From Shewanella avicenniae (lineage in GTDB: Bacteria > Pseudomonadota > Gammaproteobacteria > Enterobacterales > Shewanellaceae): a stretch of 64,000 nucleotides of DNA. Numbering within the stretch: the first letter of the stretch is position 1; each line of letters opens with the position of its first letter. The notes beneath the pieces were generated by a model, which saw only the letters and a list, made by a program, of their open reading frames with translations, ran no database searches and was not told where the DNA came from. Below are positions 37,073 through 54,525 of the stretch, one piece after another. Both the position numbers and the translations under genes were made by a program. Location: NCBI RefSeq assembly GCF_017354945.1, contig NZ_CP071503.1, forward strand, positions 3,534,001 to 3,598,000, written 5' to 3'.

Positions 37073-37104
37073 ACATCTATAGATGTCTGGACGTCTAAAT
37101 TCTA
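37073..37104 (-). promoter_or_regulatory. MetJ operator (met boxes) of metBL
   Basis: Contiguous 8-bp units ACATCTAT, AGATGTCT, GGACGTCT, AAATTCTA; the central two match AGACGTCT best. They lie 26-57 bp upstream of the metB ATG. Confidence 0.82.
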
Positions 37105-37133
37105 CCAAGCTAACCACTATCGTCAATAGGCAT

Positions 37134-37165
37134 ATAGACGTTTAGACATCTAAAAGTATAGAATT
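37134..37165 (+). promoter_or_regulatory. MetJ operator (met boxes) of metJ
   Basis: Units ATAGACGT, TTAGACAT, CTAAAAGT, ATAGAATT form a second array in the metB-metJ divergent region, suggesting metJ autoregulation. Confidence 0.7.
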
Positions 37166-37631: not shown

Positions 37632-38366
37632 ATGCAGTCACTTATCGACCCCACCACGCTGCTACTCGCCTCGCTGATTATCTTTTCTGGGGCTGTGGTA
37701 CAAAGCCTCATCGGCTTCGGCCTAGCCGTTGTCTCCGCACCGCTACTCTATATTGTTGACCCTGAATTGGTTCCTGTGCCAGTGATTTTAATGGGATTCA
37801 CTATCTCGTTACTCACGCTAGTGCGCGAACGCAGCCATCTTGAATTTAATGGCTTGCAATGGGGCTTAGTGGGGCGTATTCCCGGCGGCTTAATTGGCGC
37901 CACTTTATTATTGCTGGCACCGCAGCCTGTACTGGGCTTAATGATTGCCGCGATTGTGGCAATTGCGATTCTGCTCAATGTAAAGCACTACAGTATTGCG
38001 GTGAACCGAGTCACCATGTTTATCGCTGGTATCTTTTCGGGGATTTTTGGCACTATTGCTGGCATTGGCGGCCCACCAATGGCGCTGCTGCTTACGGGGC
38101 GTGATGCGGGTAAGTTTCGTGCGGCACTGTCGGCCTTTTTTGCGCTTGCGAGTTTGCTCAGCCTGCTGATCTTATTGTGCGTTGGCAAACTACATTGGCA
38201 CCATCTATTACTGGCATTGGTGCTCGTCCCAGCGGTATTTATCGGATTTTGGGTGTCGAATTTTATCGTGCCTTATATTGACCGGCGCCGCACACGTCAA
38301 TTTACGCTTGCGCTTTGTAGCCTCAACGTCTTGGTATTAACAGTTAAATCCTGTTTAAGCTGGTAA
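37632..38366 (+). CDS. TauE/SafE (TSUP) family anion permease
   Basis: A 244-residue inner-membrane protein with about seven to eight hydrophobic helices. TSUP hallmarks are the repeated AVVQSLIGFGLAVVSAPLLYIVDPELVPVPVIL near the N-terminus and GIFGTIAGIGGPPMALLL in the second half. TSUP proteins move sulfite, sulfonates or other organic and sulfur anions. It sits between metJ and the psr operon, so export of sulfite or a related product would fit, but the substrate cannot be read from sequence. The start follows a short 56-bp gap after metJ. Confidence 0.85.
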   Translation: MQSLIDPTTLLLASLIIFSGAVVQSLIGFGLAVVSAPLLYIVDPELVPVPVILMGFTISLLTLVRERSHLEFNGLQWGLVGRIPGGLIGATLLLLAPQPVLGLMIAAIVAIAILLNVKHYSIAVNRVTMFIAGIFSGIFGTIAGIGGPPMALLLTGRDAGKFRAALSAFFALASLLSLLILLCVGKLHWHHLLLALVLVPAVFIGFWVSNFIVPYIDRRRTRQFTLALCSLNVLVLTVKSCLSW

Positions 38367-38371
38367 AAAAA

Positions 38372-38391
38372 GAGCCCGCAATGGCGGGCTC
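38372..38391 (-). terminator. Terminator of psrABC
   Basis: GAGCCCGC-aatg-GCGGGCTC, followed on the minus strand by TTTTTTTACC, 68 bp past the psrC stop. It also separates the convergent TSUP gene. Confidence 0.82.
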
Positions 38392-38459
38392 AAAGACGCT
38401 AACAACCACAACTAACTTAGCTTGCGTTTCACGGATGTCGCTTTTAACTGACGCGGCGC

Positions 38460-39392
38460 TTAACTGATATAGCTTTGACCGGCATACAAAATGAAGTGCC
38501 GCAGTGCCAATACTCCGGTCAAACTGGCGCAGGCCGCTAATACGGTCACGCCTTTGCCATGACGCAGCTCGGCAGGGAGTAACCGTGATAACAGCGGAAT
38601 ACCAAAGCCCACCCCAACCACCAGCGCCCAGAACACTACTGCCCATTGGCCCGTGGTCAGTGACGCCAGCGCCGATGCTGCCGCACCACCTTTGAAGTAC
38701 AGCGCGGAGAACAGCATCAGCAGAAACAGCATCTCGATACCCACAACAGGCAGCTCAACCCTATGCAAGCCACTGATTTCGGCGCTATGGCTATCGGTTT
38801 TAAACCAAATCAATGCGACTAAGGCATTGGCCGCTGCACCTGCAGAAATCCCTGACACCAAGAACAGCGCCGGTAAAATTGCGGTATTGAGCATCGGGTA
38901 CACATTCATGGCAGAGATCAAAAAGCCAGTGTAAGCGCCCACCACAATCCCTAAGCCAAACAGCAACACTTCCAGCGGTTTGCGCCATCCAAGCAACGCC
39001 TCGGCAACTCCGCCCAATAGCGGCCAGTTGGCTAATGGCGCACGGAATACCAGCAGCGCATAGGCAAAGGTCAGCGGAATGTAGAGCAGCAGTGCAATCA
39101 CCCCAATCGACATCACTGAGCTGAGATTGTAGTTAATCAAAATCAGCCAGAAGTGGAACGGTTTGGTCAGGTCAAACACCAAACACAGCATGCCTAAACA
39201 GATCGCCAGCGGTGCCACCAGTGCCGCCGCTTTGATAATTGGGCTTTCAAACTGTTCGCCTTTGGCCCAGCGTAGCGCCAATGCCACCATGACCGCCCCA
39301 GCGGACAACCCCGCCAGAAACAGATAGACCGCGATTACCCAGTGCCAAGTCACCGGATCATATTGGCTCATGTCGCCCCAAATATTGTTCAT
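38460..39392 (-). CDS. psrC: Polysulfide/thiosulfate reductase membrane anchor, NrfD/PsrC family
   Basis: Integral quinol-oxidising subunit that feeds electrons to PsrB and PsrA. From the ATG at 39392 it has 310 residues with about eight TM helices, starting WHWVIAVYLFLAGLSAGAVMVALAL, the NrfD N-terminal signature. PFHFWLILINYNLSSVMSIGV and LFLVSGISAGAAANAL also fit. The ATG overlaps the psrB stop (ATGA), and AGGAGGAATCGC precedes it, so the long upstream extension of the frame is not used. Confidence 0.93.
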   Translation of the reverse strand: MNNIWGDMSQYDPVTWHWVIAVYLFLAGLSAGAVMVALALRWAKGEQFESPIIKAAALVAPLAICLGMLCLVFDLTKPFHFWLILINYNLSSVMSIGVIALLLYIPLTFAYALLVFRAPLANWPLLGGVAEALLGWRKPLEVLLFGLGIVVGAYTGFLISAMNVYPMLNTAILPALFLVSGISAGAAANALVALIWFKTDSHSAEISGLHRVELPVVGIEMLFLLMLFSALYFKGGAAASALASLTTGQWAVVFWALVVGVGFGIPLLSRLLPAELRHGKGVTVLAACASLTGVLALRHFILYAGQSYIS

Positions 39393-39961
39393 GATGCGAT
39401 TCCTCCTTTTTTGGCGGGAATTCGATACACCCGAGGCTCTGCGCCCAGATGGACTTTGTCGCGGTAAGTTGCGCGAGTTGCGATGATTTGTGCCACTTCG
39501 GAGCTGGCATCGTTGGCATCGCCAAACACCAAGGCGTTGGTTGGACACACGGTCACGCAAGCCGGTTGTTCACCGCGTTTCAGGCGTGTATCGGTACAGA
39601 AGTTACATTTATCGGCTACCCGAGTGACAGGGTTCATAAAGCGCACTTTGTAGGTACACGCCGCCACGCAGTATTGGCAACCCACGCACTTATCTTTGTT
39701 GATGGTGATAATGCCATCATCATTGCGATAGGCTGCGCCAGTTGGGCAAACCTTGATACAAGCGGCATCCTCACATTGTTGGCAGGAGATGCGCGCATAG
39801 CTGTAGTGCAGATTAGGCATCTCACCAAAGGGGCCTTCAACGCGCACTTGCAATCTTGCTACGCCATCGGGCACATCGTTTTCAGTACGGCAGGCGACAT
39901 TACACGCCTGACAGCCGATGCATTTGTTTTCGTCATGCACCATGACATATCGCTTATTCAT
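39389..39961 (-). CDS. psrB: Polysulfide/thiosulfate reductase iron-sulfur subunit
   Basis: Electron-transfer subunit with four [4Fe-4S] clusters. The 190 residues show CIGCQACNVAC (12-27 region), CQQCEDAACIKVCPTG, CVGCQYCVAACTY and CNFCTDTRLKRGEQPACVTVCP. There is no signal peptide, so it probably crosses the membrane with the Tat-targeted PsrA. It lies 12 bp after psrA and overlaps psrC by 4 bp. GGGGAGGCC precedes the ATG. Confidence 0.95.
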   Translation of the reverse strand: MNKRYVMVHDENKCIGCQACNVACRTENDVPDGVARLQVRVEGPFGEMPNLHYSYARISCQQCEDAACIKVCPTGAAYRNDDGIITINKDKCVGCQYCVAACTYKVRFMNPVTRVADKCNFCTDTRLKRGEQPACVTVCPTNALVFGDANDASSEVAQIIATRATYRDKVHLGAEPRVYRIPAKKGGIAS

Positions 39962-39973
39962 GTTGGCCTCCCC

Positions 39974-42253
39974 TTATGCCTTTTCCAATTTCACGCCGGT
40001 GGTATGGACACACATACCGCTAATAGGCGCTGTTTGGTGAGGTAGCAAATTACCGCAGTGGATCCCCTTACCTGTGGCACGGGTGAGTTCGCGGTTCTTC
40101 GAGCCAAAGCCCATGTAGGCAAAAACCGTATCGGGACGTATGCCCTTGGTGACCAATGCCTTGCCCTCTTCACTGCCAGCACTTGAGGTCAGCCGAATCT
40201 TATCGCCATCGGCAATACCGCGTGCGGCTGCCGTTTTGGGATGGATCCACACCGCGTTGTCAGACATTAAGTTGGCCAGCATCGGCACATTGTGCGTGGC
40301 ACCGTTGGTGTGTACCGCGACTTTGCCTTGAATAAAGTAGAGCTCATCGGGTTGCTTGAGGGTGACATCACGGAAGACGATGTTGCCGCGTCCAGCAACA
40401 AGGGCTTCAACCGTGTCGGAGTACAGCTCAATTTTGCCGCTTGGAGTTTTAAATTTCAGATGCGAGCCATAACTGCCATCGTCGTCAGCCGCGATAGCAG
40501 TGGCAAATTCCGCAGTAAAGTCGGCCACCATTTTTGGTTCGCGCAGCATCAGCGGCTTACCAAAACTGACATAACCCTCTGTTTTAATGCGCTTCAGTAA
40601 CGCATAATCTTTATGGACTTGGGCTAGTTGCAGAGTATGAATATCGTCCCATGGATAATAGTCTTGATACCCCAATTTGATGCCTAATTCGCGGAAGATC
40701 TGCCACGCTGGCTTGGTATCGCCAATCACCTCAACCACTTGTTGGCGCACATAATAGGCAGGGTTCTTACCTGACTTATCGGCAATCTCTTCATCCCGCT
40801 CCAGATAGGTTGACTCAGGCAGCATATAATCAGCGTAAGCCGCGGTTTCGCTGATATACAGATCGCAGGCCACCACCAGATCGAGCCCTTTGAGCACTTT
40901 TTCGATGCGCGCTCTGTCGGTCATGGTTTGCATTGGATTGGTACGCGCCATAATCCAGCCATGGATTGGATAAGGCTTGCCCGTTTCAAAGGTATCGAGA
41001 ATCGATTGATACACCCCGCCCATGCTGGCAACGAGGCTGAATTGTTTATCGTAGGTGTCGATCCGTTCAGCAGTCGGACTTGGGATTTTCACCCCAGGTT
41101 TTGCCAGACTCGGGGCCACATCAGCACCGGCAAACTTGTTGTAAGTTTTGGCTTTTTTACCGGCATAAATGCCGCCTTTACGCTCAAAGTTGCCAATCAA
41201 CACGTTGGCGGCATAGATGGCGCGGCGCAGTTCAAACTCTTCTGGCGTAAAGGTATTGCGGTGACCAAAATCGACCACCGCATGGGGTGCAGCTTTGGCC
41301 AGCTCATGGGCAATACGGCGAATGTCCTTGGCCGACACATCGGTTAAGCTTGCCGCCCATTCAGGGGTGTAGTCACGCATCTGCGCTGCAAACTGTTCAA
41401 AGCCCGCGACATAACGTTCAACAAAGGCTTTGTCGTAAAGATTATCGGCAATCAGCACATGGTTCAGCGCCAATGCGATGGCAATATCACTGCCGGGTTT
41501 GACCGGATACCATTCGTCCGCTTTGGAGGCGACCACTGAAAACCGCGGATCAAACACCACTAGTTTGGCGCTTTTCTCCATCTGCGCCTTCATCAACCCG
41601 CGGGTTTCCGACATGTTGATGCCTTCGTAAAGGTTATGGCCAAAGTTGATAATGTATTTGCTGTTGCCAAGATCGCGTTTGACCTTAGTGCCAAACATCA
41701 CTTGCGCTGCGACACCATAAGCACCGGGGCAAAGCGAGAAGTGAGTAAAGGTATTGGGGCTGCCGTAGGCTTTGGCGAGATCAAACACATAGCCATGCTC
41801 AGAGCCAGATTTAGACGAAAACACCACGCTTTCTGCGCCATGTTGTTGCTTGATCTGCTGCATTTTTTCAGCAATTTCGGCGTAGGCTTGCTCCCAGGAG
41901 ATCTCTTGCCACTTACCTTCGCCACGCTCGCCGACACGCTTCAATGGCTTCACAATCCGCTGTGGATCGTAGAGTAAGCTGTGCCCAGCACCACCACGGG
42001 CGCACACCTTACCGCCAAAGGATTTGGCCGCTTTATTGCCTTCAATAAAGACGGTTTTGCCATCGACCACTCTGGCCGAAATTGGACAGCGAGTTGAACA
42101 CATTTCACACATGCTATTGACGGCGGTTGCACTGCCTTTGAGTGGCTCAGCGCCCATTGCGGCAATGGAGCCGGGCAGCCCCCCTGAAAATGCACAAGCC
42201 GCCCCACTGGCTCCTGCGCCTTTCAGAAAGGCCCTTCGATCAAGCTTAATCAT
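39974..42253 (-). CDS. psrA: Polysulfide/thiosulfate reductase catalytic molybdopterin subunit
   Basis: Periplasmic Mo-bisPGD enzyme of the PsrA/PhsA type that reduces polysulfide or thiosulfate to sulfide in anaerobic respiration. The 759 residues begin with a Tat signal (DRRAFLKGAGASG). An FeS0 cluster follows (C49, C52, C56, C84), and THFSLCPGAYG supplies C175 as the likely Mo ligand, as in PsrA/PhsA. The C-terminal molybdopterin-binding domain ends near KGIHCGNLLPHQTAPISGMCVHTTGV. In S. oneidensis the homologous operon is required for sulfur and thiosulfate respiration. PhsA is the alternative name. Confidence 0.93.
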   Translation of the reverse strand: MIKLDRRAFLKGAGASGAACAFSGGLPGSIAAMGAEPLKGSATAVNSMCEMCSTRCPISARVVDGKTVFIEGNKAAKSFGGKVCARGGAGHSLLYDPQRIVKPLKRVGERGEGKWQEISWEQAYAEIAEKMQQIKQQHGAESVVFSSKSGSEHGYVFDLAKAYGSPNTFTHFSLCPGAYGVAAQVMFGTKVKRDLGNSKYIINFGHNLYEGINMSETRGLMKAQMEKSAKLVVFDPRFSVVASKADEWYPVKPGSDIAIALALNHVLIADNLYDKAFVERYVAGFEQFAAQMRDYTPEWAASLTDVSAKDIRRIAHELAKAAPHAVVDFGHRNTFTPEEFELRRAIYAANVLIGNFERKGGIYAGKKAKTYNKFAGADVAPSLAKPGVKIPSPTAERIDTYDKQFSLVASMGGVYQSILDTFETGKPYPIHGWIMARTNPMQTMTDRARIEKVLKGLDLVVACDLYISETAAYADYMLPESTYLERDEEIADKSGKNPAYYVRQQVVEVIGDTKPAWQIFRELGIKLGYQDYYPWDDIHTLQLAQVHKDYALLKRIKTEGYVSFGKPLMLREPKMVADFTAEFATAIAADDDGSYGSHLKFKTPSGKIELYSDTVEALVAGRGNIVFRDVTLKQPDELYFIQGKVAVHTNGATHNVPMLANLMSDNAVWIHPKTAAARGIADGDKIRLTSSAGSEEGKALVTKGIRPDTVFAYMGFGSKNRELTRATGKGIHCGNLLPHQTAPISGMCVHTTGVKLEKA

Positions 42254-42817
42254 GGTTAACCTCCAACATCTTCCTCAGAAGATGAGTCGCTCACTTTTGA
42301 ATTTTGCTTCGGTAACTTACGCAGTTACCTGTGTATTCGAGCGTATTGTTAATCCACTCAGAAATTATCGGTATTGTGGTAAACCACAATGGTGAAATGA
42401 CTGTGATCTAACACACTAGGCTATTTCACAGAATTGATTTAAATGTGAACGAAATAACATTTTAAATTAATGTTAAATCCAACCAATTTTATTTTCGCTG
42501 GCAATCTTTTTTATTGCGCCATTTTCACAAATGTTAACTTGGTCACTATTAAAAAATGCCATTAAGCCTGGGTATATTTATTTATCATGAATTATTAAAG
42601 TTATTTCATCTTAATGATTTTACTAGATTTATTAATTCATAAAATTCTTATCAATTAGATTTTTTTCAATGAAATTTTTATCAATTAGAAAAATTTCATG
42701 AAAGTGATCAGCCTCAAATCTTCACATTTATACCTTTGCTAAATTGTTAACCGTTAAAAAAACAAAAATTCATTTCGCTAAAGAAATGAGCATTAAAATA
42801 CGCAATATGAGGACTCG
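42254..42817. promoter_or_regulatory. Divergent control region between psrA and the tetrathionate reductase cluster
   Basis: A 564-bp AT-rich gap without a gene. Visible elements: a perfect 18-bp palindrome ATTGTGGTAAACCACAAT (42373-42390); a CRP-like site TGTGA-N6-ACACT at 42402-42417 (8 of 10 consensus positions); and two copies of TTATCAATTAGA (42648-42659 and 42678-42689) exactly 30 bp apart with similar flanks. The first two lie nearer psrA; the repeat pair lies about 130-170 bp before the cytochrome gene. Confidence 0.5.
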
Positions 42818-43144
42818 ATGATGAAAACTAAACTCCAGCTTGGTGTGGTATTGCTGGCCGCTTTATTCGCTGTTGGCGCAACCGCGGCGGAAGGTGGAAA
42901 CCCTAAAAAGGGCAAACATCTCTACAAAAAAGAGTGCAAAGTTTGCCATAGCAAAAGTGACGCCGCAGGGGAGATCACCCCAATGAGCAAAACCATGGCG
43001 CAATGGGACCGTTTCTTTGACAAAGACAAGCACGGCGCTAAACCCGAAGTGTTTGAAAAACTGTCAGAGCAAGATATCAAGGATATTCAACAGTTCCTGT
43101 ATGACCATGCGGTGGACTCAGCACAACCACAAACGTGTGGTTAA
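42818..43144 (+). CDS. Periplasmic monoheme c-type cytochrome
   Basis: A 108-residue class I cytochrome c. It has a signal peptide (about 1-24, cleavage after ATAA or TAA-EGG), heme motif CKVCH (C40-H44), and a likely axial Met in EITPMSKTMAQW. The C-terminal helix (EQDIKDIQQFLYDHAVDSA) and a terminal Cys follow. It is the first gene of the cluster with the DUF3373 barrel and the octaheme reductase, and would shuttle electrons to the latter. In S. oneidensis the same three-gene order precedes the octaheme tetrathionate reductase. The ribosome site GAGG precedes tandem ATGs. Confidence 0.93.
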   Translation: MMKTKLQLGVVLLAALFAVGATAAEGGNPKKGKHLYKKECKVCHSKSDAAGEITPMSKTMAQWDRFFDKDKHGAKPEVFEKLSEQDIKDIQQFLYDHAVDSAQPQTCG

Positions 43145-43266
43145 GCCAAACCACGCTAGTTCGTCACCCACACCAATTTAATTGAAGGCAGTAAAAAATA
43201 ATGGGGCTCAGCCTCAGGGACACTTGCTGCCTAAAAAAGACCGGATCACCGGTCAGGAGAGAGAAT

Positions 43267-44994
43267 ATGCGCACTCTTGTCGCGATTGTTGTTGCACAGG
43301 CGTTAGGGTTATCCGTGATGGCTGCCCCTGCTGTTTATGCCGCCGATCAACAGGATTCTGCCAAAATTGCCGAGTTGAAAAAGCAGCTGGCGGATCTTAC
43401 CGAGGAGTTAGAAGATCTGACGACTCGCGTCTCGAAAAACGAACGCCATAGCGCTACCGACCGCATCGTACTGAGCGGCGATTTCCGCGTGAAAGCACAC
43501 TCATTGCATTACCAAAACGTGACCTGGAATCCTGCGATTGCAGTGAACTTCAGTGATTTTGGTATGCGCGCTATGGCAGGTGAATATGGCAATCCTATGG
43601 ATGCTAACTCACCGCTAGGCAAGATGATGACCGCCAATCCCGATCTGGCCATGGCGTTTCAGAGCGGCATGTTGCAAGGGGTGATGCCGTACGTTTTAGC
43701 CAACCCAGAAACCCAAGATATCGATAATGATCTGCTGTACACCACTCGGTTACGCCTCAACCTCAAGGCAAAAGTGTGGGACAACGTCGACTTTGCTGGC
43801 CGCCTGAGCATGTACAAAAACTGGGGTGATAGCACTGGCGTGCAAGTGTTTGATTCTTGGCGTTCATTCTCAATGGATGGCACCAACTCGGGTAACACAT
43901 CCGGCGATTGGTTGCGGGTAGAACGCGCCTACTTTGACTGGCGTGATATCGGCGGTTCCCCCTTCTATTTATCGATTGGTCGTCGTCCATCTACTTATGG
44001 TCCTCCTAGCCAATACCGTGAAAACGAACTGCGTGGCGGCACCCCATCTGGCCACTTAGTTAACTTCAACTTTGATGGTTTGACCTTAGGTTACAAACTG
44101 GGTGAATTGCTTGATGTTGAAGGCATGGTTGTGCGCTTCTGCTACGGCCAAGGCTTTGAATCACAATGGGGCAATGGCGAACTGTTTGGCGACACTGTCA
44201 CCAAAGATACCCACCTGGGTGGCTTTAACATTGACGTGATTAACGATGGCAACCACTTCCTGCAGTTAACCTTGTTTGGCGCCAAAGACATCAACGATGG
44301 CTTCAAAGGCACTATCGCCTTCCCTAACCAATTGGCCAGCATTTTTGCGCCAACCATGTATCAAGATCTGCAAAAGTTCGACAGCTTCAACTTTGTGACT
44401 CGCGTACAACCAAGTGGTGTGATTGGCGATATGTACTTGGGCGGCATCGGCTATGCCTACGAATCCGATGACGAACAGAAGTTTTTCGCCTCCTTTGGTT
44501 GGACCCAAACCAACGGTAACGGCAACGCCGGGATGTTTGGTGGCATGTTGTCTGACGCCGTATTCACTGCCGAGTTAAACGCTGACGGTACTGAAATCAT
44601 TATGAGCCCAGCTACCGCCGACGATGACAGCAGCCACAACGGTTACGGGGTGTATGTGGGCATGCAGATCCCTGCACCTTACGGCAAAGTAGGCCTTGAG
44701 TATAACTACGGTTCTAAATACTGGACCCCATTCACTCAAGCGCAAGACGACCCTATCGGCAGCAAGTTAGCCACCCGTGGCCACGTGGTTGAAGGCTACT
44801 ACATCTTTGATGTGAATCCGAAGATGTTCATCAAGCTGGCTGGCCTGTATTACGACTATGACTACACCGGCAGTGGCACCCCAGTGGGTGCGCCGCAAAA
44901 AGTGAGCGATGTCATCGCTGGGCGCGCTTACTCACTGCTGCCTGTGGTTGATAAGGCATACGACGTGAACGCCTCACTCACCGTGAACTTCTAA
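43267..44994 (+). CDS. DUF3373 outer-membrane beta-barrel protein
   Basis: A 575-residue protein with a signal peptide (MRTLVAIVVAQALGLSVMAA, cleavage near VYA-AD). A short coiled coil follows (about 28-60, KIAELKKQLADLTEELEDLTTRV), then a long barrel of aromatic-rich strands ending in AYDVNASLTVNF with the terminal Phe of outer-membrane proteins. DUF3373 has no settled function. Its fixed place between a monoheme cytochrome and the octaheme reductase suggests a porin for the substrate, or a sheath for electron transfer across the outer membrane. The ATG at 43267 follows AGGAGAGAGA; the frame is open 22 codons upstream without a signal. Confidence 0.85.
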   Translation: MRTLVAIVVAQALGLSVMAAPAVYAADQQDSAKIAELKKQLADLTEELEDLTTRVSKNERHSATDRIVLSGDFRVKAHSLHYQNVTWNPAIAVNFSDFGMRAMAGEYGNPMDANSPLGKMMTANPDLAMAFQSGMLQGVMPYVLANPETQDIDNDLLYTTRLRLNLKAKVWDNVDFAGRLSMYKNWGDSTGVQVFDSWRSFSMDGTNSGNTSGDWLRVERAYFDWRDIGGSPFYLSIGRRPSTYGPPSQYRENELRGGTPSGHLVNFNFDGLTLGYKLGELLDVEGMVVRFCYGQGFESQWGNGELFGDTVTKDTHLGGFNIDVINDGNHFLQLTLFGAKDINDGFKGTIAFPNQLASIFAPTMYQDLQKFDSFNFVTRVQPSGVIGDMYLGGIGYAYESDDEQKFFASFGWTQTNGNGNAGMFGGMLSDAVFTAELNADGTEIIMSPATADDDSSHNGYGVYVGMQIPAPYGKVGLEYNYGSKYWTPFTQAQDDPIGSKLATRGHVVEGYYIFDVNPKMFIKLAGLYYDYDYTGSGTPVGAPQKVSDVIAGRAYSLLPVVDKAYDVNASLTVNF

Positions 44995-45027
44995 TCGAGC
45001 GCCTCGGTTCGCCGAGGCAGGAGCAAC

Positions 45028-46410
45028 ATGATGAAACGACATTTACTGTTATTGCTGGCATTAGCCGCGAGCAGCAGTTACGCCGCAGGCCCTCACCAAG
45101 ATGTTCTGCAAGGCCCATTTGCCAACGGCTCAGCAGTGACTGAAGCGTGCTTAGCCTGTCACGAGCAAGAAGCCACTGACTTTATGACCAGCTCACACTG
45201 GACTTGGGAATTAGAGCAGAAGCTGCCAGATCGCACAGTTAAACGTGGTAAGAAAAACGCAATTAACAACTTCTGTGTGTCAATCTCCGGCAACGAACCA
45301 CGTTGTACCGTGTGTCATGCGGGTTATGGTTGGAAAGACAACAGTTTTGATTTTAAAGATAAAACCAAAGTGGATTGCTTAGTCTGTCACGACACCACCG
45401 GCAGCTATGTGAAAACCGTTGCGGGTGAAGCCATGGAGAATATCGACCTGGTGAATATCGCCCAAAACGTCGGCAAACCGGTACGTGATAACTGCGGTAG
45501 CTGCCACTTCTACGGCGGCGGTGGTGATGCGGTTAAACACGGCGATTTGGACTCCTCAATGGCCTATCCGAGCAAGTCTCTCGACGTCCATATGAACGCC
45601 GATGGCAATGATTTCAAATGCCAAGATTGCCACCAAACCACTGGGCACCAGATCAGCGGCAACGCCATGGGTGTATCACCCGGCGGTGAAGATCATATCG
45701 GTTGTGAAAACTGCCACGATAAAGCCCCACACGCCAATAAGCGCTTGAATGCTCACGTGGAAACCGTTGCTTGCCAAACCTGTCACATTCCATTCTTTGC
45801 TCGCGAAGAAGCCACCAAGTTGACATGGGATTGGTCTACCGCTGGTAAAGATCTGCCTGAATCTGAAGATGAATTTGGTCGTCACACGTATCTGAAGAAG
45901 AAAGGCAGCTTCACTTGGGGCAAGATGGTGAAACCAAGTTACGCTTGGTACAACGGTCATGCCGATGCCTATATGGCCGGCGACAAGATGGACCCAACCA
46001 AAGTCACCAAACTGGCGTATCCATTGGGTAACATCAGCGACGCTAAAGCCCGTATCTACCCCTTTAAAGTCCACATCGGTAAACAGGTTTACGATAAGAA
46101 GAACAACATCTTCTTAAATCCAAAAACCTACGGTAAAGGCGGCTATTGGTCAGATTTCGATTGGGATAAGGCGATCCGTCTCGGTATGGATGCCAGCGAG
46201 GCGATGAAAGCCGCCGGCGTGTCTTATAGCGGTGAGTTCGACTTCGCTCCAACTGAAATGTGGTGGCGCATCAATCACATGGTGTCACCAAAGGAACAAG
46301 CACTGAAATGCAGCGAGTGTCACTCTGCTGAAGGTCGCTTGGATTGGAAAGCCCTCGGTTACGATGGTGATCCAATGAAAGTGAAGTCTGGCGCGCGTCA
46401 CGCCAAGTAA
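45028..46410 (+). CDS. otr: Octaheme c-type cytochrome, tetrathionate reductase family (OTR)
   Basis: Periplasmic multiheme reductase; the S. oneidensis homologue reduces tetrathionate and also nitrite and hydroxylamine in vitro. The 460 residues have a signal peptide (1-20) and exactly eight CxxCH motifs: H45, H97, H121, H160, H202, H230, H253 and H432. The segment NNFCVSISGNEPRCTVCHAGYGW matches the OTR-specific region with a non-CxxCH cysteine. A Lys rather than a His is the distal ligand of the active-site heme in the known structure; which Lys does this here was not assigned. It is last in its operon, followed by a strong terminator. Confidence 0.93.
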   Translation: MMKRHLLLLLALAASSSYAAGPHQDVLQGPFANGSAVTEACLACHEQEATDFMTSSHWTWELEQKLPDRTVKRGKKNAINNFCVSISGNEPRCTVCHAGYGWKDNSFDFKDKTKVDCLVCHDTTGSYVKTVAGEAMENIDLVNIAQNVGKPVRDNCGSCHFYGGGGDAVKHGDLDSSMAYPSKSLDVHMNADGNDFKCQDCHQTTGHQISGNAMGVSPGGEDHIGCENCHDKAPHANKRLNAHVETVACQTCHIPFFAREEATKLTWDWSTAGKDLPESEDEFGRHTYLKKKGSFTWGKMVKPSYAWYNGHADAYMAGDKMDPTKVTKLAYPLGNISDAKARIYPFKVHIGKQVYDKKNNIFLNPKTYGKGGYWSDFDWDKAIRLGMDASEAMKAAGVSYSGEFDFAPTEMWWRINHMVSPKEQALKCSECHSAEGRLDWKALGYDGDPMKVKSGARHAK

Positions 46411-46428
46411 ACGCTCTCCACCCTGCTT

Positions 46429-46465
46429 GCCAGCCTGATGAGGTTTCTCAGGCTGGCTTTTTATT
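46429..46465 (+). terminator. Terminator of the tetrathionate reductase cluster
   Basis: GCCAGCCTGA with TCAGGCTGGC (46429-46438/46448-46457), extended by TGAG/CTCA pairing, followed by TTTTTATTT, 18 bp past the stop. Confidence 0.9.
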
Positions 46466-46620
46466 TCAGACAATACGTCCAACTGCTTAAACAATATGTC
46501 CTAATCCCCTACTTTATGAATGGATAATTATTACTAATTTGGTATTTTAGCGCCGGCGCAGATAATCAAAATTGGCACTATACTTGCCATTGACGGTTAT
46601 CTTTCACAACGGCAACCTCT

Positions 46621-47763
46621 ATGACATCTGACTCAAGTAACGCAAAATCAGCGAATCAGTTTGTTGGTGAACTGACTGGCGCCTTTGCGGATTTGGGGAC
46701 TTTTCTCCCGTTAGTACTTGGCCTTATCGCGTTAAACCAATTTTCCCCTCAAGGTATCTTTTTTGGCTTCGGTGTCATGTGCTTTGGCGTAGCACTGTTT
46801 TATCGTCGTCCGATCCCGGTACAACCCATGAAAGTGATCTCCGCCTTGGTGATCGCGCAGGGACTGAGCCCGGGCATGATGCAAGCCAGCGCCATGTTGA
46901 TGGGACTTATTTTGCTTGCACTGGCCTACAGCGGCGCAATTGAGTGGTTGGCGAAACAGATCTCTCAAGCGATCTCGATCGGTATTCAGTTTGCGATTGG
47001 GTTACAGCTGTTGTGGATGGGCGCCAAGATGATGTCGCTATCGCCACTTATTGGCTTTGGCGCGTTTGCGGTGATCTTCCTCGCGCGCTTCTTGCCACTG
47101 CGCTACCTGTCTATGCCACTGGTCATCGTGCTTGGCATGTTGTGGCAATATCATCTGGGCGATAACAGCGCAGAATTTCAGTTTAACGACACCGCTTGGC
47201 ACCTTGGCTGGCCAGCAATGAATGACTGGCAAAGTGCATTAACCTTGCTGGTGTTGCCGCAGTTGGCAATGACGCTGACTAACGCGGTGATTGCCTCGTC
47301 ATTTATGGCGAAAGATAAATTCCCGGAAGATGCAGCGAAATTTACCCCGAAAGCGTTTGCCACCAGCTCAGGTTTTGCCAATTTGTTGTTAGCCCCCTTA
47401 GGTTCGATTTCGATGTGCCACGGCGCGGGCGGCCTTGCGGTGCAATACCACTTTGGCGCACGCAAAATGTGGGCACCGCTGATTTTTGGTAGTTTCTGCT
47501 TGATGATTGCCTTGTGTTGGGGCGAAACCGTGGCGTGGCTATTAAGCCTGATCCCGATGGCAATTTTGGGCAGTTTGCTTTCAACCGCAGGGTTACAACT
47601 GGCTTGGTCAAAACGACTGATTGATGGTCGGCCATTCTGTATGGTGGTGATTGCGGTAACTGCAACATTTAGTTTGGCATTTAATGCAGCGATTGGGCTA
47701 CTGGCAGGTTTAGCACTGGAATTTCTGCGCCGCCGTTGGCATCTGGTAGCAGCCTTGCGCTAA
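46621..47763 (+). CDS. MOT1-type molybdate/sulfate transporter
   Basis: A 380-residue membrane protein with 10-12 hydrophobic segments. It matches the MOT1/SulP-like pattern: ELTGAFADLGTFLPLVLGLIALNQ at the start, RRPIPVQPMKVISALVIAQGLSPG, and after the midpoint LTLLVLPQLAMTLTNAVIASS and CHGAGGLAVQYHFGARKMW. MOT1 proteins take up molybdate with high affinity in plants and algae; bacterial relatives are annotated as sulfate or molybdate transporters. Its place next to a Mo enzyme and sulfur reductases makes either ion plausible. It follows the otr terminator with its own 154-bp upstream gap. Confidence 0.85.
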   Translation: MTSDSSNAKSANQFVGELTGAFADLGTFLPLVLGLIALNQFSPQGIFFGFGVMCFGVALFYRRPIPVQPMKVISALVIAQGLSPGMMQASAMLMGLILLALAYSGAIEWLAKQISQAISIGIQFAIGLQLLWMGAKMMSLSPLIGFGAFAVIFLARFLPLRYLSMPLVIVLGMLWQYHLGDNSAEFQFNDTAWHLGWPAMNDWQSALTLLVLPQLAMTLTNAVIASSFMAKDKFPEDAAKFTPKAFATSSGFANLLLAPLGSISMCHGAGGLAVQYHFGARKMWAPLIFGSFCLMIALCWGETVAWLLSLIPMAILGSLLSTAGLQLAWSKRLIDGRPFCMVVIAVTATFSLAFNAAIGLLAGLALEFLRRRWHLVAALR

Positions 47764-47801
47764 CCCTAGCGTTGCAATTCCCGCGCATATTGAGTTTGTG
47801 G

Positions 47802-49640
47802 TTACTGTTGCCCTTGTTCAGGAAAATAAGGTAGCCATAAACTCACTTCACAACCGCGTTGCGTCGACCGATTTTTTAGCTGCAACACGCCATGGTGCTC
47901 CAGCACCACATCACGACAAATCGCCAAGCCCAGCCCTAAGCCATTTTCTTTAGTAGATGCGAATGACTGCATCAGCGCTTCAACCGGCTTACTTAAGCCA
48001 CTACCTGAGTCGGTAATCTGCAACAGCAACCATGAATGCGGACTTTGTTGCTGTTCTACTGGTGCCGCAGTTTGATAATGCAGTTGAACCAGCAACTGCC
48101 GCTCATCTTGATTATCTTCCATCGCATCAATAGCATTTTTTAGCAGATTCACCAACACTTGGCTCAGGCCAACACTGTCGCCGTAAAACCTCGTGGCTTC
48201 GCCCTCAATGGTGACCTTGAGTTCAATCTGATGCTGCTCTAATGACTTATGAAGCAGTACCAACGCATCCTCTAACAGCTCACCCAATAACAAAAATTGA
48301 AAGCCGCTGCGGCGCTGCTTTAGCAAGCCGCGAATACGATGCACCACGCCCCCCGCACGTAACGACTGAGTATGAATTTTGGCGAGCACTTGGGCTAATT
48401 CATTCGGCAGCGCATTCGGCTGAGCTTGCTGTTGCAATAACATCAACGCGCCTTCGCTGTATTGGGTTATCGCCGCAATCGGCTGGTTCAGCTCGTGCGC
48501 TAACCCCGCGCCAATTTCGCCTACAATCGCGGCACTTTGCATCCGCTCCAGCTGCAACTCTTTCTCTTTAATCTCCCGCTCGGCGGCCAACAAGTGTTCA
48601 TTCTTTTGCCGAAAACGATACTCCAGCCACAAGTGATAAAACGGAGCACCCACGATAATCAATAGCAACGCCCACGCCCATTGACGCTGGCGTTTAAACC
48701 AATCGACCGCGACTTGATACAGTGGTGGCGGATTGTTTTGCAACTGCAGTTCATCGTACAAACGGATGACTGTTAGCTGACTCACCGGCGACGTCCAGCC
48801 CATTAATCTGGCAGTAATCGCAGCATTCGAATCGGCCGAGAGCTCGAACAGCGCCTGCGTCAGTTTTTGGGTAATCGGACTCGGCACCAAATCTGACGCC
48901 GCAAATGACCAGTTAGGATACAGCGTGGTGCTAGTATCACAATCGTAGCCTTTCAAGCGTTGACCGTTGATCACCCGAAAATCATCACGCCCGATTAGGC
49001 CCTCATCCACCATCTCTTCTAATGTGCAAAACGGGGTGATCGCCGCATCGACTGAACCATCACGTACTTGGTACACCAATGGCTCCAGCGGAAATCCCAA
49101 AAAATGCACAGTGCCAAAGAAGCGGTTGCCCTCAAACCCTTTTTTATTGAGTAAGCCTATGGTCGCTTGGTAGCCACCGAGAGCTTCAGGATCAGTTGCC
49201 ACAATAGTGCTGTTATGCAGATCGGCAATGGTTTGAATCGCGCTATCGGCACGGACGATAATTGCCGAGCCAATCGCATAAGTGGCACCATTGTGTTTGC
49301 GACTGCGCATGGTTGCTAACCATGAAAGCGGTAACTGATTGGAAAGATTAAGATATTGCCCAGGGTTAGTGACGATAAATTGAATACGATGCTCGATCAG
49401 TTGCTGATCCATCTGCTTAAACGTGAGTGGCACCACCTCAAAGCGATTACCGGGCAGGCGGTCGCTGAGATAATCCATCATGGGCTGCCAGCGCATAATG
49501 CCTTGGTTCACGCCATGATTGGCCAGCACCCCAACTCGGAAGGTCGCCTCGATGGGATAGTCGCCCATCTCCGCATCCGTGGTATTGGCAAACACCTTAA
49601 TGCAGTAACCGAGCAGCAACAGCCACAGTAAGCAACGCAA
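47802..49640 (-). CDS. ttrS: TtrS/ThsS-like sensor histidine kinase with PhnD-type periplasmic sensor
   Basis: A sensor of tetrathionate or thiosulfate is the nearest known type. The 612 residues have a signal/TM at the N-terminus (1-19) and a periplasmic PhnD-like binding domain (about 30-300) with two cysteines, C205 (PFCTLEEM) and C234 (GYDCDTST). A TM helix (about 320-337), a short coiled coil, HisKA with H382 (GLAHELNQPIAAI), and HATPase with NLLKNAIDAME, DSGSGL and GLGLAICRDVV follow. It diverges from the response regulator gene and ends convergent to the MOT1 gene. Whether it senses thiosulfate (ThsS) or tetrathionate (TtrS) cannot be read from sequence. Confidence 0.85.
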   Translation of the reverse strand: MRCLLWLLLLGYCIKVFANTTDAEMGDYPIEATFRVGVLANHGVNQGIMRWQPMMDYLSDRLPGNRFEVVPLTFKQMDQQLIEHRIQFIVTNPGQYLNLSNQLPLSWLATMRSRKHNGATYAIGSAIIVRADSAIQTIADLHNSTIVATDPEALGGYQATIGLLNKKGFEGNRFFGTVHFLGFPLEPLVYQVRDGSVDAAITPFCTLEEMVDEGLIGRDDFRVINGQRLKGYDCDTSTTLYPNWSFAASDLVPSPITQKLTQALFELSADSNAAITARLMGWTSPVSQLTVIRLYDELQLQNNPPPLYQVAVDWFKRQRQWAWALLLIIVGAPFYHLWLEYRFRQKNEHLLAAEREIKEKELQLERMQSAAIVGEIGAGLAHELNQPIAAITQYSEGALMLLQQQAQPNALPNELAQVLAKIHTQSLRAGGVVHRIRGLLKQRRSGFQFLLLGELLEDALVLLHKSLEQHQIELKVTIEGEATRFYGDSVGLSQVLVNLLKNAIDAMEDNQDERQLLVQLHYQTAAPVEQQQSPHSWLLLQITDSGSGLSKPVEALMQSFASTKENGLGLGLAICRDVVLEHHGVLQLKNRSTQRGCEVSLWLPYFPEQGQQ

Positions 49641-49819
49641 TCAGTCAGCTCCACCTATTTTGAATAATGTTTAGCCTACTGAGCAATCAATCCAAATTCT
49701 ATGAGCTACTGCAGATCCCCATATTTAGCGCGTGATCAGTCTCTAAAAGCGGGCAGTTACTGTTGCTGTGATAGATATTTAGTCGTTAGTCTGGCGTAAA
49801 ACGAGCGGGAGATTATGCG
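49641..49819. promoter_or_regulatory. Divergent promoter region of the sensor and response regulator genes
   Basis: A 179-bp gap between two divergent start codons. No operator or hexamer pair stood out. The response regulator ATG follows GAGCGGGAGATT. Confidence 0.35.
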
Positions 49820-50419
49820 ATGTCAGCTAACCCTGTGGTGTATTTGGTCGATGATGATGCGGCAATCCGCGACTCACTGACATTTATGCTAAAGCAGTAT
49901 CAATATCAATTGATTAGCTTCGAGAGTGGTGCAGAGTTTTGGCAGCAAGCCGCGTGGCACCAGCCCGGCTGCGTGATTCTCGATAGCCGCATGCCCAAAC
50001 AAAGTGGCCAAGAATTACAGCAACAACTTATCCAGCACGACAGCCCGCTAGCGATTATCTTTTTAACCGGTCACGGCGATCTGCCAATGGCGGTCGATGC
50101 CTTTCGCCAAGGCGCCTGTGACTTTTTCCAAAAACCTGTGAATGGTAAAGAGTTAGCCGCCGCCATTGCCAAAGCGCTCGACTTCAGCCAACGCACCTAT
50201 GAACAGCAGCAACTACAAACCCTGTATAGCAGCCTGTCTCAACGAGAACAGCAAGTAGTCGCACTGCTTATCGACGGCAATACCAATAAACAGATGTCTG
50301 AAAACCTGTGTTTATCACTGCGTACGATTGAGGTTCATCGCGCCAATGCGATGAAAAAATTGGGAGTACATACGATGGCAGAGTTAGTGAAATACACTCA
50401 GCTTTCTTCAGCGCAATAG
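49820..50419 (+). CDS. ttrR: TtrR/ThsR-like response regulator (FixJ/NarL type)
   Basis: A 199-residue two-domain regulator. The receiver has the acidic pocket DDD (11-13), phospho-acceptor D55 (VILDSRMPKQSG), the Thr of FLTGHGD, and Lys in FFQKPVNG. A LuxR-type helix-turn-helix follows (about 135-195: LSQREQQVVALLIDGNTNKQMSENLCLSLRTIEVHRANAMKKL). It is paired by divergence with the TtrS/ThsS-like kinase. Probable targets are the neighbouring otr, psr or MOT1 promoters, by analogy with known Shewanella thiosulfate and tetrathionate two-component systems. Confidence 0.87.
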   Translation: MSANPVVYLVDDDAAIRDSLTFMLKQYQYQLISFESGAEFWQQAAWHQPGCVILDSRMPKQSGQELQQQLIQHDSPLAIIFLTGHGDLPMAVDAFRQGACDFFQKPVNGKELAAAIAKALDFSQRTYEQQQLQTLYSSLSQREQQVVALLIDGNTNKQMSENLCLSLRTIEVHRANAMKKLGVHTMAELVKYTQLSSAQ

Positions 50420-51570: not shown

Positions 51571-54525
51571 CTAGAATTTCACGCTCGCGCTAAATTCAAC
51601 ATAACGTGGCGTTTGGAACGCAGTGGTTGCACCGTAGTCTTCATCCAACTGACCTGGATCACCTAGTTCAAAGTACTCGTACTTACGAATGCTCGCAGAA
51701 GAGTTGAACACGTTATATACGTTGGCTTTCAGGATAACATCCAGATCTTTAGCCACTTCCCAAGTATAAGAAGCTGACAAGTCTAAACGGTAAACCCAAT
51801 CAGTTCTGCCTGCGCTACCACGAGGATTGTAGTCGTAGCTACCGTCTTCGTTCATTGTGTAGTAGGTGTCACCGTAGTCAGGAATACCTGATGGGCTGCC
51901 GATACCGAACTTGTTGCGTGGACGACCTGATTCGACGCTTAAGTTAGCACCGACGGTCAGATTTTCAGTCAAGGCATAAGCACCAAACACCTTCAACATA
52001 TGACGGCGATCGTTAGGCAGATAGCCATCAGCACCTTCCATCAGGATTGGGAAGTCGAAGTCTTGGGTCAAACCAGCGTCGGTTTGCGCGTTGTCTGATT
52101 TCACCAAACCTTCGGTGTTACCGTAGCTTTGTGACCAAGTATAAGTAACGTTCATGGTCCAATCATCTGACCAACCACGAGCCAAGTTCAGGTCGATTGC
52201 GTTATAAGTACGTTCCGCTTCTGGATAAAGCAGTTCTGCACCAGGAATAGTTTCCATAGTGTCAACCACGCCATCACAATCGGTGTCCAGTTTAACAGTC
52301 ATGTCTTTACCTGGGTTACCCAGTACATAACCGCCACCACCTGGATGTTCACAACCATACTTGTCTTCAGTCCAGTGACTGATAGTCATGTCGTCGATTG
52401 CACCATTCAACTTACGTTGAGTACCTTTAATACCCCATGACCAATCTTCGTTAATCATCGCTTGGTAACCAATGATGATTTCATCTTGGTACATAGGGTC
52501 TAGCTCTTGGTCAACAATCGCTTGAGTATCTGGGATTTCACCATCAGCCAGTACTGAGTCACCACCAATTTTATCGCCTAAGATTGGTGTTGGAACAGTT
52601 GCACCATTGATAACATCAGCGCCAGTGCCTTCCAGTACATAGTATTGACGTACGTCAAATTCGTTACCTGACAAACGAACGTTGGTGTTACTTGCAATCG
52701 GCAGATAGTAACGACCGATGTTCGCAAACAGTTTAGATTCACCGTCGCCATTGATATCCCATGAAGCACCAATACGAGGCGCGATCATGTCATCAATTTT
52801 CGCAAATGAATCACCTACTGAGTTCATGTTGTCAAATGAATCCCAACGTAAGCCGATGCTTAAGGTCAGGTCATCAGTCACACTCCAAGTATCTTCAATG
52901 TAGATAGCTTGAGACTCAACTTTAAAGTCACCGCCCACAGTACGCTGACGTGAACGCGCGTATTGAGTTACACCCACTGGAGTACGGGTACCGTTGGCCA
53001 ACATAGCACCAACAGCAGGGTTACCTACGTCGTAGTAAACCCAGTAAACACCACCTGGACCGGTGTAGAATTGGTTACTGTTAGATTTATTGTTTTCTTG
53101 GTCATAACCGAAGGTCAAAGTGTGTGATTCGTTAATCACCCATTCAAAGTCAGCGCGGAACTCTTTACGCTCGTCTTCACCTTCACTAACAAAATAAGCG
53201 TCAGAAGACACACAACCGTTGTAGTAATACTCAGCAACGTCACGCGTGTCGATGATCATGTTACATTGATCCATCACGTCTGAGGTTGTGGTTGAAGCTA
53301 GGCTGTATTTGTTGATGCCATACAGCAGCTTAGCGGTGAAATCATCGGTTAATTGACCGGTATAGGTCAGCACATAGTTATCACCACCAGACTCATCAAC
53401 CGCAGGGCTTAATGCTAAGCCAGTTGACAGTACATTAGTCTTGGTTGTTGACTTGTCTTTATCAGAGAAGCCTAAGAATTCCAAGGTGTGGTTTTCGGCG
53501 ATGTTCCAGTCTAATTTCAAACCCCAGAATGGGTTATCAGACTTACTAGAAGTTTCCCAATCACCTTGGTTAGTGATGGCATCTGACTTATTGCTACGTG
53601 GTTGGTACATGGCGAAGAAGAACAATTTATCTTTAACCAATGGACCAGATGCGTAGATGTTACCTTCATACAGGTCATTGCTATCGTTTGAGTTATCGAT
53701 ATACAAATCACCATTTGAGTTGTAACTGTTCGGTGCGTTAGAACTCAGTGAATCCGGGCGCCAACGAACGTTGCCACCAAATTCCCAATCGTTACTACCG
53801 CGTTTTACCACGGCGTTAACCACACCACCGGTCGAACGACCAAATTCAGCACCGTAACCACCGGTTTTAACTTCAAACTGGTCGTAGAAGTCAAATGGAA
53901 CGTTTGAAAAACCAAGACCGTTACGGAAGTTGGTTACGTTCAAGCCGTTAATAAAGAATGCGTTTTCAGCGACTGATGCGCCACCAAACGAAGCAAAGTT
54001 ACCAAAACGAGCATCACCACGAGTGGTACCTGGTGCCAACAGTGCAACGCTGGTTACGTCTTTTGGCAAAGGCAAACGCTCAATTTCAGCCTGGCTGATC
54101 ACCAGAGAAGATTCTGATGAAGTGGTATCAAACGCGGCTACACGACTTCCTACTACAGAAAGACGTTCCATACCTTCAACGTTCATCACCGAGGTAACTT
54201 CTGCGTTACCACCGATGGTTACCATCACATCATCAATTACCTTTTCATCATATCCGTCAGCGGTAATTGTGATGGTATATGAACCGATAGGTAAGCGAGG
54301 GATACGATATTTACCGGTAGCATCAGTAGTGATGCTACGGGTTAAACCTGTGGCTTTGTTTTTAATTAAGATAGAGGCGTTACTCAGGGGGGCCTCAGTT
54401 TGAGAAAGCACACTACCTTGAATCGTACCGTCAGTGTTACTTGCTGCAAATGTTGGAACACTAATTGCGAACAATGTTGACACTGAGGCAGCGATAAGCG
54501 ACCGCCTAAACTGTTTTTTTATCAT
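51571..54525 (-). CDS. Oar-like TonB-dependent outer-membrane receptor
   Basis: A 984-residue outer-membrane transporter. It has a signal peptide (about 1-28, ending PTFA-AS), an N-terminal carboxypeptidase-regulatory-like beta-sandwich (about 30-115, GTIQGSVLSQTEAPLSNASI), and a plug domain (about 120-240) with FFINGLNVTNFRNGLG and AEFGRSTGGVVNAVVKRGSN. A 22-strand barrel follows, ending FQTPRYVEFSASVKF with terminal Phe. Oar-type receptors lack the usual siderophore signatures; some import peptides or proteins. The adjacent exported S46 peptidase supports a peptide-related role, as inference. Start ATG behind AAGGAAGAGC. Confidence 0.92.
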   Translation of the reverse strand: MIKKQFRRSLIAASVSTLFAISVPTFAASNTDGTIQGSVLSQTEAPLSNASILIKNKATGLTRSITTDATGKYRIPRLPIGSYTITITADGYDEKVIDDVMVTIGGNAEVTSVMNVEGMERLSVVGSRVAAFDTTSSESSLVISQAEIERLPLPKDVTSVALLAPGTTRGDARFGNFASFGGASVAENAFFINGLNVTNFRNGLGFSNVPFDFYDQFEVKTGGYGAEFGRSTGGVVNAVVKRGSNDWEFGGNVRWRPDSLSSNAPNSYNSNGDLYIDNSNDSNDLYEGNIYASGPLVKDKLFFFAMYQPRSNKSDAITNQGDWETSSKSDNPFWGLKLDWNIAENHTLEFLGFSDKDKSTTKTNVLSTGLALSPAVDESGGDNYVLTYTGQLTDDFTAKLLYGINKYSLASTTTSDVMDQCNMIIDTRDVAEYYYNGCVSSDAYFVSEGEDERKEFRADFEWVINESHTLTFGYDQENNKSNSNQFYTGPGGVYWVYYDVGNPAVGAMLANGTRTPVGVTQYARSRQRTVGGDFKVESQAIYIEDTWSVTDDLTLSIGLRWDSFDNMNSVGDSFAKIDDMIAPRIGASWDINGDGESKLFANIGRYYLPIASNTNVRLSGNEFDVRQYYVLEGTGADVINGATVPTPILGDKIGGDSVLADGEIPDTQAIVDQELDPMYQDEIIIGYQAMINEDWSWGIKGTQRKLNGAIDDMTISHWTEDKYGCEHPGGGGYVLGNPGKDMTVKLDTDCDGVVDTMETIPGAELLYPEAERTYNAIDLNLARGWSDDWTMNVTYTWSQSYGNTEGLVKSDNAQTDAGLTQDFDFPILMEGADGYLPNDRRHMLKVFGAYALTENLTVGANLSVESGRPRNKFGIGSPSGIPDYGDTYYTMNEDGSYDYNPRGSAGRTDWVYRLDLSASYTWEVAKDLDVILKANVYNVFNSSASIRKYEYFELGDPGQLDEDYGATTAFQTPRYVEFSASVKF

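Follow-up and report, generated by a model that had tools for sequence, protein, structure and literature searches.

A 64,000-nucleotide stretch of the Shewanella avicenniae genome (positions 3534001-3598000 of contig NZ_CP071503.1, a 4.20 Mb single-contig genome; hereafter the window) holds, between positions 37632 and 50419, a cluster of genes for sulfur oxyanions. These are a TSUP permease gene, the thiosulfate reductase genes psrABC, an operon encoding a small cytochrome (cyt), a DUF3373 protein and an octaheme tetrathionate reductase (OTR), a MOT1-family transporter gene and the genes of a two-component sensor pair. We consider it highly probable that the cluster comprises a thiosulfate module (ThsSR and psrABC), an OTR operon distinct from it and two bystanders, all sharing an address. 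An earlier note on the same DNA had read these genes as one coherent pathway; the gene identities, control of psrABC by a ThsSR-type sensor and the tie of MOT1 to the molybdoenzyme are supported, while the shared switch, tetrathionate sensing and sulfite export through TSUP are not.

In the mechanism that we propose, periplasmic thiosulfate would be bound by ThsS, leading to phosphorylation of ThsR, which would act on a single palindrome upstream of psrA, together with a CRP-family protein, to switch on psrABC. The PsrABC enzyme, exported by twin-arginine translocation (Tat), would then use quinol electrons to reduce thiosulfate to sulfide and sulfite. The cyt-DUF3373-OTR operon would be under general anaerobic control through a CRP/FNR-like site of its own, independently of ThsSR. 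ThsSR is a known system that has been tested in one species, and is here extended genus-wide; our search of the open-licence literature returned no paper on a genus-wide Shewanella ThsSR regulon, nor on control of OTR by this pair.

The sensor pair and its operator follow psrA

The elements of the thiosulfate module are as follows.

42374-42389, no strand assigned: predicted ThsR operator TTGTGGTAAACCACAA, based on the published operator, 120 bp from the psrA start and 428 bp from the cyt start
39974-42253, minus strand: psrA/phsA, molybdopterin thiosulfate/polysulfide reductase with a Tat signal (RRAFLK; NCBIfam PhsA NF012032)
39389-39961, minus strand: psrB, 4Fe-4S subunit (PF13247, NrfC-like)
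about 38460-39392, minus strand: psrC, NrfD-type membrane subunit (PF03916), with an ATGA overlap with psrB; the start at 39392 is our own reading, the list of open reading frames beginning psrC at a TTG, 39560
38372-38391, minus strand: terminator-like hairpin after psrC, closing psrCBA (from a pattern scan only)
47802-49640, minus strand: thsS, ThsS-type thiosulfate sensor histidine kinase (Phosphonate-bd, PF12974; HisKA; HATPase, PF02518), phospho-accepting His382
49820-50419, plus strand: thsR, ThsR-type FixJ/LuxR response regulator (PF00072, PF00196) with Asp55, divergent from thsS

We surveyed a sample of 97 genomes of one genus, Shewanella, drawn evenly from a larger group. The sensor gene thsS and psrA are both present in 74 of them and both absent from 23, with no exceptions, one genome (G055) being counted as a holder of the two genes although both are in pieces. 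By comparison, thsS and OTR occur together in 55 genomes, the sensor alone in 19, OTR alone in 12 and neither in 11 (p 0.07, ignoring kinship). The comparison of synteny across Shewanella that the earlier note had called for came out in favour of a sensor that tracks psrA, and against one that tracks OTR. The genes thsS and psrA lie less than 1.5 kb apart in 42 of the 74 genomes and 20-150 kb apart on one contig in 11, and in several of the latter thsSR is near OTR with the operator still at psrA. The G055 locus (L048, G055:C1:2377000-2391000) matches psrA, thsS, thsR, OTR and TSUP only in pieces or in part, and the assembly is 96% complete; these fragments represent either joint decay or a low-quality assembly.

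The published ThsR operator, TATGTGGTTTACCACAAT, is required for thiosulfate activation, according to the available text of its description (Daeffler 2017, PMC5408782). The exact pattern TGTGGTNNACCACA occurs once in the 4.2 Mb genome of S. avicenniae, at the predicted site upstream of psrA, and the reversed pattern does not occur in it at all. Across the sample, an exact copy was found in 72 of the 74 psrA genomes (114 sites) versus 4 of the 23 psrA-less genomes (4 sites), against 23 and 8 sites, respectively, for the reversed-pattern control; in the remaining two, G040 and G048, the operator at psrA is a variant. The position of the exact site was read for most of the 72 genomes, and exact operator matches elsewhere (e.g., G009 C3, G044, G083 and G061 at 3.96 Mb) are roughly as frequent as matches to the reversed control.

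Promoters were counted in the fetched loci and the window where enough upstream sequence was at hand, i.e., 50 psrA genes of 74 and 60 OTR operons of 67. At two mismatches or fewer, the operator lies upstream of all 50 psrA genes, with no reversed-control match even at three or fewer, and in the fetched loci it lies upstream of none of 45 thsS, 45 thsR, 29 MOT1 and 12 TSUP genes. In genomes with thsSR close to OTR but 80-115 kb from psr (e.g., G015, G036, G039, G042, G061), the exact site is at psrA and there is none at OTR. The rule across the genus is that operator and sensor follow psrA, wherever either gene lies. For G061, in which OTR does not adjoin these genes as in the window but is separated by ~28 kb from thsS and by ~83 kb from psrA, we would predict that the sensor pair is the thiosulfate switch of psrABC. 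By analogy with S. halifaxensis, ThsR would use the operator of S. avicenniae in the same way.

The enzyme proposed to be under this control has a Tat-exported molybdopterin subunit of the PhsA family (1311 bits against a NF012032 cut-off of 694) with an Fe-S subunit and an NrfD-type anchor, encoded in one operon. In its three subunits, operon order, Tat signal and passing of the PhsA model it resembles PsrABC of S. oneidensis MR-1 and PhsABC of Salmonella, with no difference of note. Production of H2S from thiosulfate in S. oneidensis requires PsrABC, and the operon is under Crp, as given in the available text of PMC4412017; in the window, a CRP site is only loosely matched in the psrA promoter. 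A second PsrA-like protein, 57% identical, is encoded in G016, G053, G080 and G092.

The pair is of the ThsSR type

The window's kinase combines a Phosphonate-bd periplasmic domain with a HisKA/HATPase kinase, and its partner is a FixJ-type regulator with the Asp and a helix-turn-helix domain. The two proteins are 48% and 55% identical to ThsS and ThsR of S. halifaxensis, respectively. We took genome G053 as S. halifaxensis, since it agrees with the paper in the thsS-phsA spacing (342 bases), in holding the published 18-mer twice and in Asp57 of the regulator. Sensors in the 97 genomes fall into a clade ~49-68% identical to the window sensor, in 74 genomes, a 37-43% clade near ttrA and a ~30% clade elsewhere. 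A quick maximum-likelihood tree of 66 selected rows of the 123 collected placed the window sensor and S. halifaxensis ThsS in one 46-row clade (approximate likelihood-ratio support, SH-aLRT, 99), and the 16 TtrS-type rows in the other group, with weak support (20) and one very long branch. Gene order follows the same division. Among 80 named loci, all 63 of the ThsS type have a divergent regulator, and 17 of 17 of the TtrS type have one in tandem with the sensor, with a ttrB-like gene adjacent. The window pair has no ttrBCA neighbour, no tandem ttrS-ttrR order and no place in the TtrS clade, and the window genome gave no ttrA match at E 1e-200 or below.

Both window proteins fall below the cut-offs of the NCBIfam models, with 374 of 750 bits for TtrS and 206 of 290 for TtrR. 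We dropped the TtrS cut-off as a discriminator, since a TtrS encoded beside ttrA in Shewanella falls short of it too, at only 406 bits. The earlier label of a TtrSR/ThsSR-type pair can be narrowed: ThsSR holds on clade and divergent regulator, and TtrSR is given up on clade, gene order and co-occurrence with psrA.

In the available text of Daeffler 2017 (PMC5408782), S. halifaxensis ThsSR responds only to thiosulfate among the acceptors tested; the eight others include tetrathionate and sulfite, and both of these inhibit it. With the window pair in the ThsS clade, the proposed sensing of tetrathionate is not supported, and by analogy with S. halifaxensis the pair would be specific for thiosulfate. 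Its likeness to ThsSR and phsAB-psrC of S. halifaxensis HAW-EB4 (Shal_3125-3129; PMC5408782) extends to domain architecture, divergent kinase and regulator, operator core and an operator upstream of psrA. The two differ in that HAW-EB4 has two operators and the window one copy, and in that thsSR of the window is 5.5 kb off, across the OTR operon and MOT1, whereas it is 342 bp from phsA in HAW-EB4. TtrSR of Shewanella baltica OS195 and of Salmonella shares the Phosphonate-bd sensor kinase and FixJ-type regulator, but belongs to the separate clade of 37-43% identity, in tandem and beside ttrB/ttrA, which the window genome is without.

Two further observations concern related sensors. The third clade of Phosphonate-bd sensor kinases has a tandem regulator (L226-L230, e.g., G061:C1:1473834-1475492), and in two scanned loci its neighbours are ApbE and FMN_bind, plus FAD_binding_2 in L228, which suggests a sensor for a flavin-dependent periplasmic reductase. 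One ThsSR-psr locus (L160) comes from a record with the title Marinobacter nauticus but clusters with Ferrimonas balearica in the tree; the record is probably mislabelled or contaminated, or the locus a transfer.

The OTR operon probably has its own control

The elements of the OTR operon are as follows.

42703-42718, plus strand: CRP/FNR-like site AGTGATCAGCCTCAAA (pattern match), 115 bp ahead of cyt, assigned to the cyt-DUF3373-OTR operon
42818-43144, plus strand: cyt, small monoheme c-type cytochrome (PF13442; one CxxCH)
43201-44994, plus strand: DUF3373 protein, predicted outer-membrane beta-barrel (PF11853, 480 bits); true start probably ~43267
45028-46410, plus strand: OTR, octaheme tetrathionate/nitrite/hydroxylamine reductase (TIGR04315; PDB 1sp3; eight CxxCH)
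46429-46457, plus strand: terminator-like hairpin in the gap between OTR and MOT1 (read off the sequence)

The ThsR operator was found upstream of the OTR operon in 9 of 60 cases, eight of which have psrA as a divergent neighbour and one of which is a relic in genome G073, and at two mismatches or fewer it is absent from all 51 upstream regions free of a psrA promoter or relic. Because the operator belongs to psrA alone, and the presence of OTR in a genome does not depend on that of the sensor, OTR would lie outside the ThsSR regulon, and a switch shared by the two is unlikely save in a lineage-specific case, discussed below. The earlier claim of one sensor over both psr and otr is accordingly not supported. 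Operator-like sites upstream of DUF3373 (2 of 60 at two mismatches, 3 at three, none in the reversed control) were rejected as a coding coincidence, since most of those read are the end of the cyt frame (TGC/TGT GGT TAA, Cys-Gly-stop) and some occur in the psr-less loci L118 and L122.

A CRP pattern is a regular feature of these promoters, occurring at two mismatches or fewer in 44 of 60 cyt promoters versus 10% in shuffles. The best matches lie 100-135 bases before cyt in 50 of 60, and genomes without psr retain the match (10 of 12 at two mismatches or fewer). A tighter pattern, NRTGATNNNNNTCAAM, has 44 exact matches and fits all 60 at that position, but was written after seeing the sites and is descriptive only.

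The nearest relative by OTR (92%) and MOT1 (90%), G073 (L053, G073:C1:105000-116000), provides a natural comparison. It has lost, in two separate deletions, the counterparts of window positions 38354-42336, with psrCBA, and of 47916-50191, with the greater part of both thsS and thsR; between them the cyt-DUF3373-OTR-MOT1 block is kept intact at 90-94%. Tails of thsS (35 residues) and thsR (~78 residues) remain, as does the operator with one mismatch, a decaying relic. In the relatives G005 and G037, psr and thsSR are arranged as in the window, placing the loss on the G073 side, and this natural double deletion is a ready-made comparison strain.

The identity of OTR is clear from its TIGR04315 score (616 bits against a cut-off of 375), eight CxxCH motifs and a whole-length match to PDB 1sp3, the OTR of S. 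oneidensis (SO_4144). The gene order of the operon is that of other OTR loci of the genus, cyt being upstream of DUF3373 in the fetched loci where the stretch is covered. OTR reduces nitrite, hydroxylamine and tetrathionate in vitro, as reported in the available text of PMC4484225 and PMC6449678. In this cell, OTR may feed thiosulfate from tetrathionate to PsrABC, which is chemically plausible.

For linkage beyond Shewanella, 40 OTR regions were taken from a sample of 398 genomes of the phylum. Two of the 40 had a PsrA-like gene close to OTR (L279 and L283, both weak matches), L259 had just a psrB-like gene, and DUF3373 turned up in two of the 40 (L260, and L267 of the same family), so both linkages are rare outside the family. 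The model of the DUF3373 protein is of low confidence (predicted local distance difference test, pLDDT, 58) and porin-like; its porin matches indicate only a barrel, and an MtrB-type conduit was not among the 50 matches listed. Over 24 aligned copies, DUF3373 is 75-87% identical to that of the window, mostly slightly above OTR of the same operon (67-92%), a conservation that is unusual for an outer-membrane protein.

MOT1 and TSUP as probable bystanders

46621-47763, plus strand: MOT1-family molybdate transporter (PF16983)
37632-38366, plus strand: TSUP (TauE/SafE) permease (PF01925)

MOT1 was found in 69 of 74 psr genomes versus 9 of 23 psr-less genomes (Fisher p 2e-7, ignoring kinship) and has no association with OTR (p 0.58). 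The molybdenum link that had been drawn earlier is in this respect supported, and MOT1 plausibly supplies molybdate; on another reading, psr-less genomes may simply hold fewer molybdoenzymes. TSUP, present in 91 of the 97 genomes, was found in 69 of 74 psr genomes and 22 of 23 psr-less ones, several of which have it directly between metJ and cyt-DUF3373-OTR (e.g., L053, L123, L126, L128). It is a near-core gene of the met/OTR neighbourhood, with no special tie to psr. Sulfite from Tat-exported molybdoenzymes arises in the periplasm. Since PsrA has a Tat signal and its sulfite would already be periplasmic, an inner-membrane sulfite exporter is not called for, and the idea that TSUP exports the sulfite made by PsrA is not supported.

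Alternative readings

Several points weigh against a thiosulfate module that merely adjoins an independent OTR operon. The co-occurrence counts ignore shared descent, identity between the window sensor and the experimentally tested ThsS is only 48%, the NCBIfam TtrS model fails to separate ThsS from Shewanella TtrS, and the CRP/FNR-like pattern of OTR was refined on the same promoters. Moreover, 13 of the 55 genomes with psrA, OTR and thsS have the three inside 20 kb, and adjacency of OTR and phsABC, with a joint pathway, has already been proposed in Beggiatoaceae (available text of PMC6449678). Lastly, psrA and the OTR operon diverge from one intergenic region in the window's lineage (42254-42817, 564 bases, in the window).

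The last point opens the way to a lineage-specific capture, in which the lone operator of this shared region, present in the window and its counterparts (8 fetched loci including the window), would also activate OTR, so that thiosulfate would switch both operons here and OTR would be outside the regulon elsewhere. We consider this improbable, as the operator is 428 bases from cyt versus 120 from psrA, the OTR promoters of this lineage also have the CRP/FNR-like match, and psr-less G073 keeps OTR while its operator begins to decay. If it were true, thiosulfate made by OTR would switch on both its consumer and its maker, a positive feed-forward loop; such a loop, again with little chance of being real, would work without a tetrathionate sensor in a strain without ttrBCA-ttrSR.

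More doubtful still is a single sulfur-oxyanion island, in which the pair switches on psr and otr with thiosulfate or tetrathionate, MOT1 gives molybdenum and TSUP exports sulfite. The physical clustering of the genes, including the 13 genomes noted above, and the association of MOT1 with psr are consistent with it. So is the case of the orange Beggiatoaceae (BOGUAY_2386 to 2381), where OTR is beside the phsABC thiosulfate/polysulfide reductase genes, a tetrathionate-thiosulfate-sulfide pathway has been proposed and tetrathionate reductase activity was measured; the available text of that paper (PMC6449678) mentions neither a ThsSR pair nor DUF3373. Against it are an OTR operator confined to the shared divergent region (8 of 60) and the relic, with 0 of 51 others, the 12 genomes with OTR and no sensor and 19 with the sensor and no OTR, the sparing of the OTR block by the G073 deletions, the unresponsiveness of the published ThsSR to tetrathionate (available text of PMC5408782), and TSUP in 22 of 23 psr-less genomes. 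The position of the sensor beside OTR, which the earlier note had found notable, is also not rare: 15 of the 55 genomes with both have thsS no more than 5 kb from OTR, and it is near OTR in Shewanella sp. ANA-3 and S. decolorationis as well.

That the pair is a TtrSR-type tetrathionate sensor, re-used for OTR after loss of ttrBCA, is very unlikely, as the below-cut-off TtrS and TtrR matches and the missing ttrA that would agree with it are outweighed by a sensor in the ThsS clade, a divergent regulator, exact co-occurrence with psrA, a true TtrSR that forms its own clade near ttrA with a ttrB-like neighbour in every named locus, and a TtrS model made uninformative by the low score of Shewanella TtrS itself. 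We therefore retain the thiosulfate module with a separate OTR operon, and a caution follows: neither tetrathionate sensing nor OTR regulation should be read off gene neighbourhood.

Gene layout and neighbouring features

Every gene named in the earlier note is present where it had been placed, and the identities are borne out by family profiles. TSUP and psrCBA are convergent, psrCBA and cyt-DUF3373-OTR divergent, and kinase and regulator divergent; from these directions, the cluster has at least six separate transcription units, i.e., TSUP (plus), psrCBA (minus), cyt-DUF3373-OTR (plus), MOT1 (plus), thsS (minus) and thsR (plus). Rfam and tRNA scans of the window gave no matches. Upstream of TSUP, the gap between metB and metJ (37095-37160) holds AGACGTCT-like repeats, which resemble MetJ boxes. 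Beyond thsR, an RluA-type pseudouridine synthase (PF00849; 50445-51401) adjoins a 984-aa protein (51571-54525, minus strand), which we tentatively read as a TonB-dependent receptor whose N-terminus forms a carboxypeptidase-like domain.

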